Assembly: GCA_938041445.1 (NCBI GenBank)
Contig: CALISO010000051.1
Span: 1-64,000 of the forward strand
Source of the DNA: an uncultured Saprospiraceae bacterium
GTDB lineage: Bacteria > Bacteroidota > Bacteroidia > Chitinophagales > Saprospiraceae
DNA: 64,000 bases
Direction: 5' to 3'
The translations under genes and the position numbers were made by a program. The notes beneath the pieces are model-generated. The model was given only the letters and a program-made list of their open reading frames with translations, had not been told where the DNA came from and searched no databases. This document shows positions 38,533 to 45,877 of this stretch, piece by piece (position 1 is the first letter of the stretch; every line of letters begins with the position of its first letter).

Positions 38533-41208
38533 TTAGTGAGTTGAGATTAGGGTTGACTCAGATTTCTGTTGCCCAAAGTTGAGTATTTTATCAATAAAAC
38601 TGAAAGGTTTGTAGTGATTAATGGCGCATTGGTGAAAGATACAAGTAGCTGGAGTTACTCCTGGCAAGCTATTTACTTCGATAATGATTGTTTCAACTCG
38701 ACCATCACTATAAATCCTTACAAATGCGTCAATTCTACAATACCCTTCGACTCCTAATAGTTCCGCTGCTTGTTGAAGTGTTTGCTTTACTTCAGCTGAA
38801 ATGCGGTTATATTGGGATTGGTCGCTGCCAAATCTTGCTGGAGTAATGTTCTGGCCCTGTCCAGCAAGGAATTTTTCTTCAAGACTCAGGATTTCGTCAC
38901 CAGCCAATACTTCTGATGGTTCAAATACTTCAATCTTTATCTTACCACCATCTTCTGCATGATATAGCATACCACCTGTCACTTCTAGAAAATCAGGAGC
39001 ACCATTATCATCAATCAAAGATTCAATCAGTACTTCTGACTTTTGAGGAAACTCTTCATTGTGGGCAAGTCCTAGTGCTGATCGTGCCGCTGCATCCAAT
39101 GCCTCTTCAGATCTAAATAATGCATTAAGGTATTGCTCCAACTGTGCCCTAGACTTAATCTTCACTACAGCACTACTGCATCCATCATCTACTGGCTTTG
39201 CGATGAAGGGATAGTTAAATTGATCTTCAATGAGTGTGTACCATTCATCATTATCTATATACTGAGATCGTTGATAGCGCAATTGATCGGCAACCATAAA
39301 TCCATGAGACTTGAGTAATTGCAATGTCTCATACTTGTCTATCGTAAGCGATGAGCTTTTTGGACCAGATCCGTTATATGGAATGCAATTTTCCTCTAAA
39401 AATGCTTGAATAGTACCATCCTCACCAGGACGACCGTGCAATGCAATAAATGCTAGATCGATGTGGTCAGCAATAGAGTTTGTAATATCAATAGGCGCTG
39501 TAATTGCAGAAGCATTACCATACTTGCTTAAGAGATGTTGTTGGTCTGTTCGCAAGGTCTTAGTGATAGTATGCGTCTCATAATTGGTAATCGAATCTCG
39601 GATATCGTCAGCATTATCCTTCAATAAAATATTGATAGGGATTTGATACAATTTATCTGTCGCCTTGCCATCTCCATATAGAAAAATCGGCACCACGGCA
39701 TACTTACCACTACTTGCAAGTTTCTCATAAATATTACGGCCACTTTCTACACTGATGTGTCTTTCAAATGAATAACCTCCAAGAATCACCCCTACTCTTT
39801 GCTTCTGTATGGCATTTGACTGAATAGAACCAATAGCAGCATCAAGTGTTGTCAGCATTGTTTTGTACCGGTTCAATGTGAGACTATACCTATCTCTTTC
39901 GGCAATACTGTTTCGGATAATAAATGTGATAAACCCAGAAGGATCAAGCCCCAACTCGGCAGCTTGGTGAAAGAAGAATGAGGATGGCAACATTCCAGAT
40001 GTTGTATTAGGATCGTTGAGAAGTACTCGACCATCCTTTGTAAAAAATCCATCAATTCTTGCATACACCTTAAACCCAAGCATCTTGTAGAGTGCAACGC
40101 ATTCTGATTGAATGAGCTTTATTTCAGCTTCAGCTAATTCGATAGGGGTTATTTTTCTGCTCCTACCAGGCATATATTTAGACTGATAGTCATATACTTC
40201 CTCCCCTTTCATGATCTGTGTTGGCGGTAAAGCAAAAGCTGTACCTGCTTCATCTACAGTCACTACACAGCTAAACTCCATTCCATCAATGAATGCTTCA
40301 CAGATAACAGTCTGCTCTGAGTCCACTGCCTTGATTGTGATATTTTCGGTGGCATTAGCCAATCTATTATGAAATACTGACGCTTGATGAACAAGCTCTC
40401 CATTTACATATGCAGGTAATCCTATATTAGATTTTGGATCTATTAATTCTTTAACCAAGCCCGTAATCTGTTCTTCAGTGAGTGCTTGCAAGTCATCTGT
40501 ATTGTACTCAACGGTAAAAAAGGCTTGTCCTACAGCTTGCTCGAATATGTTAGGATTGTCACTATTGATAATCGCTACGCCTATTGATGAACCTTGATGT
40601 GCTGGTCTGACGACAAATGGAAAACCTACTTTGGACTTGACCTCATGATAGTTCAATTGACCAGATTCAAAATCGTGTCGAGATATTTCCACAAATGGTG
40701 CTGTCTCAAATCGTGAAGTCTCCATCCAACGTTTCTGAAGTGCCTTGCTCATACCAACTGATGATCCGACAACATCACTTCCAGAATAAGGTATACTCAT
40801 ATAATCAAGCAACCCTTGAATCTCTCCATCTTCTCCAGATCGACCATGCAATGCAAGAAATGCGAAGTCGATTTTTTGTGATAATTCTGAGATTTCAATA
40901 CGCTTACCAATACTATTGATTGCCAATTGATATTCTGTATCACTGAGATTGAGTGATTCTATATAGATCTGATAATCTTGCTCAGTAGAAGGAATAGACT
41001 CTACAGGTGGGTAAAAGTCTCTAATCGTACCCTTGTACACATACTCCCAATCGAGTTCAATCAGCGTATTATACGAATCGACAAATATCAAGACTGGCTC
41101 AAAAAGTGCCTTGTCAAGGTTGTCATAAACTGTCCTTCCTCCTGCAAAAGAAATTTCTCTTTCTCTAGAAGGTCCACCAAATAATATCCCAACTTTAATC
41201 TTCGACAT
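38533..41208 (-). CDS. Tandem D-alanine--D-alanine ligase fusion (two Ddl/ATP-grasp modules)
   Basis: Module 1 'KVGILFGGPSREREISFAGG...LALHGRSGEDGEIQGLLDYMSIPYSGS'; module 2 'RVGVILGGYSFERHISVESG...IALHGRPGEDGTIQAFLEENCIPYNGSG...IIIEVNSLPGVTP'. Start set at the internal ATG (41208); the ORF extends to 41238. Confidence 0.92.
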   Translation of the reverse strand: MSKIKVGILFGGPSREREISFAGGRTVYDNLDKALFEPVLIFVDSYNTLIELDWEYVYKGTIRDFYPPVESIPSTEQDYQIYIESLNLSDTEYQLAINSIGKRIEISELSQKIDFAFLALHGRSGEDGEIQGLLDYMSIPYSGSDVVGSSVGMSKALQKRWMETSRFETAPFVEISRHDFESGQLNYHEVKSKVGFPFVVRPAHQGSSIGVAIINSDNPNIFEQAVGQAFFTVEYNTDDLQALTEEQITGLVKELIDPKSNIGLPAYVNGELVHQASVFHNRLANATENITIKAVDSEQTVICEAFIDGMEFSCVVTVDEAGTAFALPPTQIMKGEEVYDYQSKYMPGRSRKITPIELAEAEIKLIQSECVALYKMLGFKVYARIDGFFTKDGRVLLNDPNTTSGMLPSSFFFHQAAELGLDPSGFITFIIRNSIAERDRYSLTLNRYKTMLTTLDAAIGSIQSNAIQKQRVGVILGGYSFERHISVESGRNIYEKLASSGKYAVVPIFLYGDGKATDKLYQIPINILLKDNADDIRDSITNYETHTITKTLRTDQQHLLSKYGNASAITAPIDITNSIADHIDLAFIALHGRPGEDGTIQAFLEENCIPYNGSGPKSSSLTIDKYETLQLLKSHGFMVADQLRYQRSQYIDNDEWYTLIEDQFNYPFIAKPVDDGCSSAVVKIKSRAQLEQYLNALFRSEEALDAAARSALGLAHNEEFPQKSEVLIESLIDDNGAPDFLEVTGGMLYHAEDGGKIKIEVFEPSEVLAGDEILSLEEKFLAGQGQNITPARFGSDQSQYNRISAEVKQTLQQAAELLGVEGYCRIDAFVRIYSDGRVETIIIEVNSLPGVTPATCIFHQCAINHYKPFSFIDKILNFGQQKSESTLISTH

Positions 41209-41387
41209 ATTCCTGCTATAATCCCATAAAGATGGCACTTTCTTTCATATTAACCATAATATCAATATGTAATTTGCCAAGGTGATAAAATAACGTAATT
41301 GCTACTGTACTAAATACATCATATTTGCCAGAATAATTCTTAGAGACATTTAGCTCAACGTCAGGGCTAAGCCCAAATACAGACGAA

Positions 41388-42533: not shown

Positions 42534-43781
42534 TTATTTTTCTTCTATTGATTTTTTGATCCCAAGTGCAATGGCTTTGGCCAAAAGAGGAGGAACTGCA
42601 TTTCCGATTTGCACCATTTGCTTTCCCTTTGCGCCTTTAAAAATAAAGTCATCTGGAAAAGATTGCAGTCTAGCCATTTCTCTTACTGTAATGACTCTAG
42701 GCTCTATGGGATGAATATTGACTCCTCCGTGATTTTCCTTGATTGTACAGCTTGCTTCGTTCCAAGGACACTTCTTCCATGAATCGGAATAGTTATCATA
42801 AAGGCTTTTGCCTTCGGGCACAGCAGCCAATCTGATTTTCATTTCCTCTTTATGCTTTGTTCTGATGTGATTAATGTCCTTATTATCCTCTACAGTAATC
42901 AGGTCACTGATCGCTTCTCTAGTGGTAATGTAGGATCCTTCCTCTAGAAGCGGTGATGGGTGATAATTATTCTTCTCAATTCTATTTGCAATGAATATGA
43001 TTCTTTCTCTTTTCTGAGGAACATAGTAATCTGCTGAGTTCAGGACGGTAACATTGACCTCATAGCCCAATTCCTTAATGTCTCTTTTGATCTTGTCCTC
43101 GACTTTTCCTTTGAGCATTGAACGCAAACCTTTGACATTCTCGGCGACTATATACTGGGGTCGCAACTCATTGATAATTTCTAACATATCCTTGTACAGT
43201 GAGTTTCTAGGATCTTCTACAATCCTACTACCTGACATACTAAAGCCTTGACATGGAAAACCACCAGAAAGTACAGTCAAATCTTTGCCTTTCAGCTTAT
43301 TCTTCACCGTATCAATAAATTGTTTCTTGACTTCGGTACTAGTAATATCTCCTTCGATTAATGGATGTTCAAAGTTGTGGCGATAAGTCATTCCTGCTTC
43401 CTTGAACCAATCCAAACCTGCTACTTGATTGAATCCTGCCATTTCGAAACCCTTAGCCATACCACCAGCACCACAAAACAAATCTGCAGAAGAAAACTTA
43501 TTGGGCTTAATATTCTCCCATTCATCGGAAATATCTATCCAATTAACTATGTCTGTTTTAGTAGACTTACGAGTACTGGACTTGACGACTTCTTTGGGTT
43601 CTACCTCGTGCAACGAAAGGTTAATGAAATGCTGAAGCTCACTTTCTTCAATACGATGAACACCACCAATCTTATTTGACTTAAGCTTACCAGAATGAAT
43701 GTATCTTCTTACTGATTTTTGCGAAACATTGAGCTTTGCAGCGACATCTTCGATTCGGAGCATTTTAGTGATAGTGTCCAT
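42534..43781 (-). CDS. DNA (cytosine-5-)-methyltransferase with N-terminal excisionase/MerR-type HTH
   Basis: HTH 'MLRIEDVAAKLNVSQKSVRRYIHSGKLKSNKIGGVHRIEESEL'; m5C motifs I 'DLFCGAGGMAKGF', IV 'GGFPCQGFS', VI 'AENVKG', VIII 'QKRERIIFIA', IX 'RVITVREMARLQSFPD', X 'QIGNAVPPLLAKAI'. Confidence 0.95.
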   Translation of the reverse strand: MDTITKMLRIEDVAAKLNVSQKSVRRYIHSGKLKSNKIGGVHRIEESELQHFINLSLHEVEPKEVVKSSTRKSTKTDIVNWIDISDEWENIKPNKFSSADLFCGAGGMAKGFEMAGFNQVAGLDWFKEAGMTYRHNFEHPLIEGDITSTEVKKQFIDTVKNKLKGKDLTVLSGGFPCQGFSMSGSRIVEDPRNSLYKDMLEIINELRPQYIVAENVKGLRSMLKGKVEDKIKRDIKELGYEVNVTVLNSADYYVPQKRERIIFIANRIEKNNYHPSPLLEEGSYITTREAISDLITVEDNKDINHIRTKHKEEMKIRLAAVPEGKSLYDNYSDSWKKCPWNEASCTIKENHGGVNIHPIEPRVITVREMARLQSFPDDFIFKGAKGKQMVQIGNAVPPLLAKAIALGIKKSIEEK

Positions 43782-43783
43782 AC

Positions 43784-43801
43784 TTGTCCAATTTTGGGCA
43801 A
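43784..43801. promoter_or_regulatory. Near-palindrome just upstream of the methyltransferase start, overlapping a TATATTTG -7-like element
   Basis: TTGTCCAA-TT-TTGGGCAA (one mismatch between arms); minus-strand TATATTTG at 43799-43806. Confidence 0.5.
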
Positions 43802-43808
43802 ATATAGC

Positions 43809-44465
43809 CTAAACAATCATATAGTGGAAATCATTATCTGTGTTTTCAATGATAAATATACACTTTGCAGTGACTGATTTATATTTAACAAGTTTGAGTG
43901 CTGAGTCGCTCAACAATTGATTGAAATCCTGATAGGCTGCATTCTTTAAATCCCAATGACATCTCAAAAATCTACTACGATCATTGTTCCTAAATGAGTG
44001 GTGTACGATAAAGAGTCGGTTTTGGATATTGTACCTCACGCCTCTACTTTGCTTTTCATAGTAAAACTTGATTAACTCTGATTCACACTCTTGATTAACC
44101 ACTAAATCTTTTCGCAATGATTGAGGAACGACAGTACCTTTTACATCGAATTGTATAGAGTCATTAAATTCGACATCCCAAGTCTGATCTTTGTGATCTG
44201 GATTCTTTCTTACATTTTCTAAATTGTAAAAAAGGTATTCGTCAACTTGGGAGCACTTCCATAAAAACCAGCGGTATCTAAAATAATCTTGCTCTTCAAA
44301 AGATAATCCAGATATCGCACTCTCAAGTGAATCTCTGCTTCTGCAAGCAAACATGTTAACCTTGCTATCACACCTATCATTCTGCACTTTACCCCAATTT
44401 AGAGGTATCACTTTGGATAGACTTTGTAATTCCTTACTCAATATGGCGAAGTCACTATATGTCAT
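43809..44465 (-). CDS. Putative PD-(D/E)XK-type nuclease-like protein of a restriction-modification-like operon
   Basis: 'TWDVEFNDSIQFDVKGTVVP' resembles a D...DxK core; start overlaps the upstream gene's stop by 4 nt (ATGA). Family not recognised. Confidence 0.5.
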   Translation of the reverse strand: MTYSDFAILSKELQSLSKVIPLNWGKVQNDRCDSKVNMFACRSRDSLESAISGLSFEEQDYFRYRWFLWKCSQVDEYLFYNLENVRKNPDHKDQTWDVEFNDSIQFDVKGTVVPQSLRKDLVVNQECESELIKFYYEKQSRGVRYNIQNRLFIVHHSFRNNDRSRFLRCHWDLKNAAYQDFNQLLSDSALKLVKYKSVTAKCIFIIENTDNDFHYMIV

Positions 44466-45877
44466 CGATTCAAACTTAGAAGGTTACCAAAATTAAATCT
44501 AAATTTTAATGAATTTCTTGCGGTATGGATCTGAAATTCTCCAATAGACACTTTCTTGGACACTCCATACTTGATTGTCACACTACTCTTTTCTGTAAAG
44601 TCATTACTATAATCAATCAATTCTGAGTCAAAACATATCCCTTCTAACTCTGATTTACTAATAAGTGCGGATGAGATATTGCTTTCACTTAAATATCTGG
44701 ACCAAAGTACATAGTCACATTCATTCAAGAATCTCACATACTCCTTGAGAAGTAGAGATACTATATTCCTATTTCTAACAAGCTCTCGAAACTTACCTTC
44801 ATCAATGTTACCTTCATACCAACCTCGCTCAGAGAAATACAAGTCAAATGTCTTGGGCGATGGTTGACCTATTTCTGGTGGGCAAACCTTGTAGGATTTC
44901 GACTTATTGGTTTTGACTGAAAGTGAATGATCATCTTCAAGATAAAAATCAACCCCACTTTTACTACTGCTTCCTCTTGCCCTCTTTGCTGTGCCAGCAT
45001 ACTTGATAGGCGCTAATGGAAACAATTTCTTGCGATTATTACCATAGTGACTTTTTAAGGACTCTAATATTTCTTGGTCTGAGTTATTGATAAGTCTATC
45101 ACTATCATTTCCAGGATCAAGATTGAAAATTTTGCAAATAGCCAGTTCTGCAGTATCGCCTAGAGTTGAATTATTAATGACTTTTTCCTTCTTCAAAAGT
45201 TCTGGAAAATTGTCACGGTGCAGTCTAATTTTAAAACCACTTCTATTGGCGTGCAATTGAAGTTCTAGGACAGTTTTACCTTTAAATTTTACTGTATTGG
45301 ATTCATTCCAAGTCTCTTCAGTAGCCTTTGTAAATGAAAAATCCTTGAAGTCATAGGTTAAATCTGCTAAATCCTCTCGCTTCAGAATCTCATACCTATA
45401 GGTTGCATTCTCACGATAAAACCAGCAGTTATAGTCACTAACTATCGCATAGTCAACTACTATTGGAAGTATTTCATTAATCTTGGATAAACAGAAATGT
45501 CTAAAGTTACTCCGGTCAATTACCTTGGAATATAGATCACCAAAAAAATGGTTAAACGTTTCGTTACCCGCTTGTCCTACAACCTTTGGTGCAAACATTT
45601 TTCCTTTCCCTTTAAAGGTTCTTACAGAAAACGTTTCATCATTATCAAGTAAAAAATTATGAGGGCATCTTTTGATGTAAGGTGATGTGAACTGCGTTGA
45701 AGAAGTGAGATATTCAATGGGCTTGGGTTTCCCTTTGAATATACTGTCAATGATGTTAGACTTCAGGAATGATGAGAGCAAGTCTTGATCTACCCGACTT
45801 ATGGAAATGTCATTTACAATCTCAAATTGCTTGCAGATTGCATATTGAAATGTCATTCCAAAAGTTTCATTATTCAT
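44462..45877 (-). CDS. Putative restriction endonuclease with tandem-duplicated nuclease-like domain
   Basis: Internal duplication: 'HNFLLDNDETFSVRTFKGKGKMFAPKVVGQAGNETFNHFF' vs 'VDFYLEDDHSLSVKTNKSKSYKVCPPEIGQPSPKTFDLYF', and 'ELQLHANRSGFKIRL' vs 'EFQIHTARNSLKFRF'. Operon with a C5 MTase. Confidence 0.55.
   Translation of the reverse strand: MNNETFGMTFQYAICKQFEIVNDISISRVDQDLLSSFLKSNIIDSIFKGKPKPIEYLTSSTQFTSPYIKRCPHNFLLDNDETFSVRTFKGKGKMFAPKVVGQAGNETFNHFFGDLYSKVIDRSNFRHFCLSKINEILPIVVDYAIVSDYNCWFYRENATYRYEILKREDLADLTYDFKDFSFTKATEETWNESNTVKFKGKTVLELQLHANRSGFKIRLHRDNFPELLKKEKVINNSTLGDTAELAICKIFNLDPGNDSDRLINNSDQEILESLKSHYGNNRKKLFPLAPIKYAGTAKRARGSSSKSGVDFYLEDDHSLSVKTNKSKSYKVCPPEIGQPSPKTFDLYFSERGWYEGNIDEGKFRELVRNRNIVSLLLKEYVRFLNECDYVLWSRYLSESNISSALISKSELEGICFDSELIDYSNDFTEKSSVTIKYGVSKKVSIGEFQIHTARNSLKFRFNFGNLLSLNR

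Follow-up and report, generated by a model that had tools for sequence, protein, structure and literature searches.

Two unrelated predicted nucleases beside a single m5C methyltransferase in a probable CATG-specific, Type IIP-like restriction-modification operon of a Saprospiraceae bacterium

Several described restriction-modification (R-M) systems resemble, each in a different respect, the operon reported here. UpaP162 of Ureaplasma parvum (CA^TG, with the methyltransferase (MTase) UPV229) is a CATG cutter whose MTase shields these sites against both UpaP162 and NlaIII, the authors leaving open whether the modified base is m5C or m6A (PMC6191088). The predicted target of our operon is the same, and relatives of its MTase in Mesomycoplasma hyorhinis and M. 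cynos directly adjoin UpaP162-family nucleases; however, it has two nucleases rather than one, neither of which shows a likeness to UpaP162 detectable by BLAST or matches the UpaP162 family (NCBIfam NF045956) at E<=1. The predicted target is also that of NlaIII and of the IceA1-HpyIM system: IceA1 is 52% identical to NlaIII (PMC2749054) and recognises CATG according to the title of Xu et al. 2002, as cited in PMC3261200. These nucleases constitute a separate family, ICEA (PF05315), with a weak HNH match, and this Pfam model matches neither nuclease of our operon. The MTase families that accompany ICEA genes, D12 and N6_N4, also serve relatives of our smaller nuclease elsewhere, whereas the present operon combines an m5C MTase with two nucleases. 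Two different nuclease genes per system are likewise seen in the Type IIT enzymes BtsI, BsrDI and BbvCI and in the α2-β2 enzyme BslI, but these are obligate heteromers; here, each nuclease type is found separately with this type of MTase, there is one MTase and the predicted site is a palindrome. Finally, Sau3AI is a single chain of roughly 490 amino acids with two homologous tandem MutH-like domains, one of them catalytic, and recognises the 4-bp palindrome GATC. It differs from our larger, 471-aa nuclease in motif type, we see no evidence of common ancestry between the two, and the Pfam MutH model matches neither nuclease at E<=1.

The window, by which we mean the entire 64,000-nucleotide stretch analysed, comes from an uncultured Saprospiraceae bacterium. 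On its minus strand, a 471-aa ORF (44462..45877, from the ORF list) is followed by a 218-aa ORF (43809..44465), whose start overlaps the stop of the former by 4 nt (ATGA), and then, after a 27-nt gap, by the 415-aa m5C MTase (42534..43781). An initial sequence-only reading had already placed these three ORFs, the overlap, the gap and the complete MTase in this way, and its proposal of an R-M operon that combines one m5C MTase with two different nucleases is borne out by our analysis. The 471-aa and 218-aa proteins have no detectable homology to each other. The same reading called the MTase orphan-looking, which it is not. A nuclease gene adjoins a DNA MTase of cognate type, as is characteristic of Type IIP systems, and such pairs recur in the viral contigs L297 and L298 discussed below. 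No D12, N6_N4 or ICEA gene is present in this genome, and the operon's m5C MTase gene is its only intact one. A short fragment of another m5C MTase, spanning 46 profile positions, lies elsewhere in the same genome (G000:C25:14545-14694; L275). Other genes occupy the desaturase gene/thr operon interval in the congeners G178 and G233, and G089 has a different gene order; the three-gene operon was not found at the corresponding slot in any of the three. Its absence between the corresponding flanking genes of these congeners marks the operon as an acquired cassette. The window additionally codes, at 38533-41238 on the minus strand, for a 901-aa ORF resembling two tandemly fused D-alanine-D-alanine-ligase-like (ATP-grasp) units.

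The MTase is complete, with the Pfam DNA_methylase domain (PF00145) covering residues 97-409 (E 3e-70). Pfam and NCBIfam searches further recovered an N-terminal helix-turn-helix (HTH) domain of the HTH_17 (PF12728) or excisionase-like type (residues 7-54; 43620..43763, minus strand), a possible autoregulator, which is alignable in the MTases of M. hyorhinis and L298 and absent from that of L297. The best relative in the plasmid collection is the M. hyorhinis enzyme, the neighbour of a UpaP162-family nuclease, which is 48.7% identical over the full length. The target-recognition core (residues 300-361; 42699..42884, minus strand) is 71% identical between the two MTases, as against 51% in the catalytic motifs. 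The core is also well kept in the viral relatives, with 42/62 residues identical to the window MTase in L298 and 38/62 in L297. We accordingly regard the window MTase as a predicted CATG-specific enzyme.

The 471-aa protein matches the PADLOC REase_II model PDLC03458 as a whole protein (E 4e-21), and both of its halves match the same part of this 342-position model (positions 184-332; E 1e-15 and 6e-7). It is a tandem duplication, the halves of which align over their full length with 27% identity (E 1e-14); in this duplication, and in leaving the first 183 model positions unmatched, it departs from the PDLC03458 architecture. From the half-versus-half alignment, the N-terminal copy (residues 1-238; 45164..45877, minus strand) is predicted to be catalytically dead, with N74 replacing D, R86 replacing K and V99 replacing E. 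The C-terminal copy, in contrast, has the predicted catalytic motif D310...S320-V-K322...E335 (GVDF / SLSVKT / CPPE; 44873..44950, minus strand). A 500-aa homologue encoded by L298, which is 38% identical over the full length and likewise duplicated, retains this C-half motif as YDF / TLSVKS / CPPE, and its N-half displays D-to-N and K-to-R losses identical to those of the window protein. Since the N-terminal domain is dead in this homologue as well, its condition appears to be an old, maintained state rather than one of recent decay, and we interpret the 471-aa protein as a long-standing pseudo-dimer in which one site is predicted to be live. We consider it a putative nuclease from its REase_II match, its motif and its gene context; an AlphaFold model of its C-half, computed from a two-row alignment, reached a pLDDT of 40 and was discarded. 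The L298 homologue is the only one recovered in all our searches: plasmids, phages, 295 family genomes and 396 phylum genomes contained no real homologue, a direct scan of viral contigs with the single sequence gave no match, and the protein belongs to no Pfam, NCBIfam, PHROGs or PDB-sequence family. Weak matches in G436 and L003 proved on inspection to be unrelated DUF-like proteins, C-half matches in L280 and L283 were rejected as chance FtsZ-like matches, and an equation of PDLC03458 with CviAII, based on length alone, was dropped.

The 218-aa protein used as a single query returned nothing in direct scans of GTDB contigs or viral contigs, and it has no match in PHROGs or among PDB sequences. 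A two-sequence profile of this protein and a homologue from a Priestia plasmid opened up a family (hereafter the 218 family): about ten of the 396 phylum genomes have strong matches, and scanning one genome per species gave at least 212 loci. Neither the window protein nor the family members tested are matched by any Pfam, NCBIfam or PADLOC model, and the family may already have an enzyme name in REBASE. In a 40-sequence alignment, E76, D97, D107 and K109 are invariant, and all four are present in the window protein (E76 codon at 44238-44240; D97...D107-x-K109 segment at 44139..44177; both minus strand). An AlphaFold model based on these 40 sequences (pLDDT 81) has an α-β-β-β-α-β core made up of helix 56-80 (with E76), strands 85-87, 98-100 (with D97) and 104-112 (with D107 and K109), helix 125-137 and strand 150-156. 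Model and alignment thus combine the core and the E...D...(D/E)xK signature of the PD-(D/E)XK nucleases, and we predict the 218-aa protein to be one of these with an intact active site. A Foldseek search with the model gave nothing at E<=0.001 in the PDB, where the restriction enzymes 3ndh and NhoI appear at E about 1, and no significant match in the viral library. The description of both ORFs as nuclease-like in the sequence-only reading agrees with the REase_II match of the one and the invariant residues of the other, and no characterised enzyme of the same architecture was matched, while the 218-aa protein does model with a nuclease core. Its statement that neither ORF could be assigned to a named restriction family holds for Pfam, NCBIfam and PHROGs, but in PADLOC the 471-aa protein has the REase_II model.

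The neighbors of the 218 family at the loci inspected are chiefly D12 adenine MTases (59), followed by N6_N4 MTases (15) and both together (5), with no recognised MTase at nine. Such loci without a recognised neighbouring MTase include L054, L065, L080, L085, L101, L125 and L127; either their MTase lies at some other place, or such copies serve a different function. Larger members are fused to a D12 MTase or lie beside a long N6_N4 MTase: L041 codes for a 728-aa single-chain fusion with a D12 MTase, and L040, L042 and L043 have relatives of about 365 aa beside an N6_N4 MTase of roughly 510 aa. Within its family the window protein diverges most, retaining 23 of 38 near-invariant positions where its relatives retain 90% or more, so its specificity or its independence may have changed.

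An MTase-alignment scan of viral contigs uncovered 13 close relatives of the window MTase (50-64% identity). In L297, an MTase sharing 59% identity with the window enzyme is preceded at 8 nt by a 218-type gene, with no 471-type gene; in L298, a 471-type gene (HMM E 1e-82) lies upstream of an MTase with 50% identity, with no 218-type gene. As L297 and L298 carry one nuclease each with this MTase type, the window operon appears to combine two nucleases that otherwise serve singly, each arrangement being represented by one example on a metagenomic viral contig. The window shares the HTH-bearing MTase form with L298, and the L297 MTase has no HTH; hence, it is plausible that a 471-MTase pair came first and later received the 218-aa gene. 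Elsewhere among the 13, the MTase gene of L289 is convergent with a weakly ICEA-like one, and several contigs code for the MTase without a recognised nuclease.

Taken with the features of the individual proteins, these pairs lead us to propose that the locus is probably a Type IIP-like R-M operon directed against CATG, with two separately sufficient nucleases and one MTase, and not an obligate heteromer. The HTH-fused MTase would methylate the cytosine in CATG and thereby protect the chromosome, and unmethylated CATG in incoming DNA would be cut both by the 218-aa PD-(D/E)XK enzyme and by the 471-aa pseudo-dimer, which has one dead and one predicted live domain. With each nuclease sufficient alone and the MTase common to both, this would amount to a composite double-nuclease system, presumably deployed in phage defence. 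The suggestion of the sequence-only reading that the operon is an R-M system plus an accessory comes close to this, except that both nucleases look like full restriction enzymes. We give a lesser but real chance to a division of labour between the two nucleases on CATG, or an optional complex of both, in place of mere redundancy. For example, one nuclease might tolerate a phage DNA modification or cut hemi-modified sites that the other cannot, and the dead half of the 471-aa protein might serve as an allosteric second-site sensor.

The same reading had also raised the possibility of a heteromeric restriction enzyme. In a BtsI/BsrDI-like Type IIT arrangement, recognition would fall to the 471-aa protein, and each of the two proteins would contribute an active site. 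A layout of large and small subunits is known for Type IIT (PMC4081073) and for BtsI, the overlapping ATGA start suggests coupled translation of the two genes, there is a single predicted live site per protein, and the 218-aa protein is its family's outlier. Because the genes overlap and each contributes one predicted live site, this retains some plausibility, but the data do not require it and it leaves the separate pairs unexplained: each nuclease occurs without the other beside this MTase type, and dozens of genomes have a 218 relative on its own with an MTase. Moreover, Type IIT enzymes have asymmetric sites and usually two MTases (PMC4081073), as opposed to the predicted palindrome and single MTase here; neither an obligate catalytic pair nor an asymmetric site with two MTases is what the genomic context and the predicted site display. 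We therefore do not favour a heteromer and judge it unlikely. Similarly doubtful is the idea that one nuclease works while the other is decaying or has another role, such as cutting differently modified DNA, or is a relic being lost. The loss of 15 of the 38 near-invariant positions from the 218-aa protein and the dead half of the 471-aa protein would fit this; against it, both ORFs are intact with their catalytic motifs kept, and the dead N-terminal domain shared with the L298 homologue bespeaks an old, maintained condition.

Returning to the proposed CATG-directed operon with two self-sufficient nucleases, its target can be approached through site avoidance, an established signature of Type II systems, of which lost systems leave traces too (PMC4687349). 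Over 457 kb of this genome no other 4-mer is as depleted as CATG, with 725 occurrences observed and 1770 expected (O/E 0.41), compared to a mild depletion (O/E 0.72-0.80) in the three congeners without the operon. The depletion in this genome does not tell which of the nucleases is behind it, and it may be the trace of a lost system. In all five sampled 218-family genomes, which have other MTase classes, CATG is the first or second most depleted 4-mer (O/E 0.11-0.51). Its median O/E at 218-family loci is 0.48 with D12 partners and 0.44 with N6_N4 partners, versus 0.80 in controls drawn from the window organism's own family and not taxon-matched to those loci. The related viral contigs L294-L296 and L299, which carry the MTase with no recognised nuclease, have a CATG O/E of 0.03-0.06, or 1-2 sites in about 11 kb where about 30 are expected, a near-absence that fits pressure from CATG restriction. 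An additional pointer comes from loci with ICEA genes. In the Bacteroidota, L152 has an N6_N4 MTase followed by ICEA, with the start of a D12 gene at the contig end, and in L153 an ICEA remnant adjoins a D12 MTase of 69.5% identity; among viral contigs, L278 and L288 combine ICEA with D12, and L277 a 218-type gene with D12. Since the D12 and N6_N4 MTase families are common to both, the 218 and ICEA/NlaIII nuclease families look interchangeable. In L060, L066, L071, L100, L111 and L152, cassettes comprise an N6_N4 MTase, a nuclease of either the 218 or the ICEA/NlaIII type and a D12 MTase, and the nuclease swap between them is an apparent non-homologous replacement. Four independent lines, namely the identity of the target-recognition core, CATG depletion in this genome, its depletion in 218-family genomes and the MTases common to NlaIII/IceA loci, thus point to CATG as the palindromic site that both nucleases and the MTase would share. 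That the operon is not CATG-specific and the depletion stems from a lost R-M system, mutational bias or the like draws on such traces, on the known general avoidance of palindromes (PMC4687349) and on the milder depletion in the congeners, but is improbable given this convergence and the scarcity of CATG in viral contigs with this MTase type.

Type II R-M systems are well known as a kind, and what is new here is the arrangement of two nucleases with one MTase and the uncatalogued 218 family. As R-M architectures go, it is unusual for a single MTase to guard against two unrelated nucleases that share an inferred target, and the operon offers a natural test of why cells keep redundant cutters, be it phage escape, modified phage DNA or backup after loss. 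The 218 family is widespread, yet missing from the family libraries used; CATG is predicted as its target by three independent lines, it appears to be exchangeable with the NlaIII/IceA-type nuclease in otherwise similar cassettes, and four MTase classes serve as its partners (D12, N6_N4, fused D12 and m5C). In one further locus, L067 of Epilithonimonas hominis, a stretch of about 4.4 kb contains a 218-type nuclease together with a D12 MTase and a different m5C MTase; this may be one R-M system nested in another.
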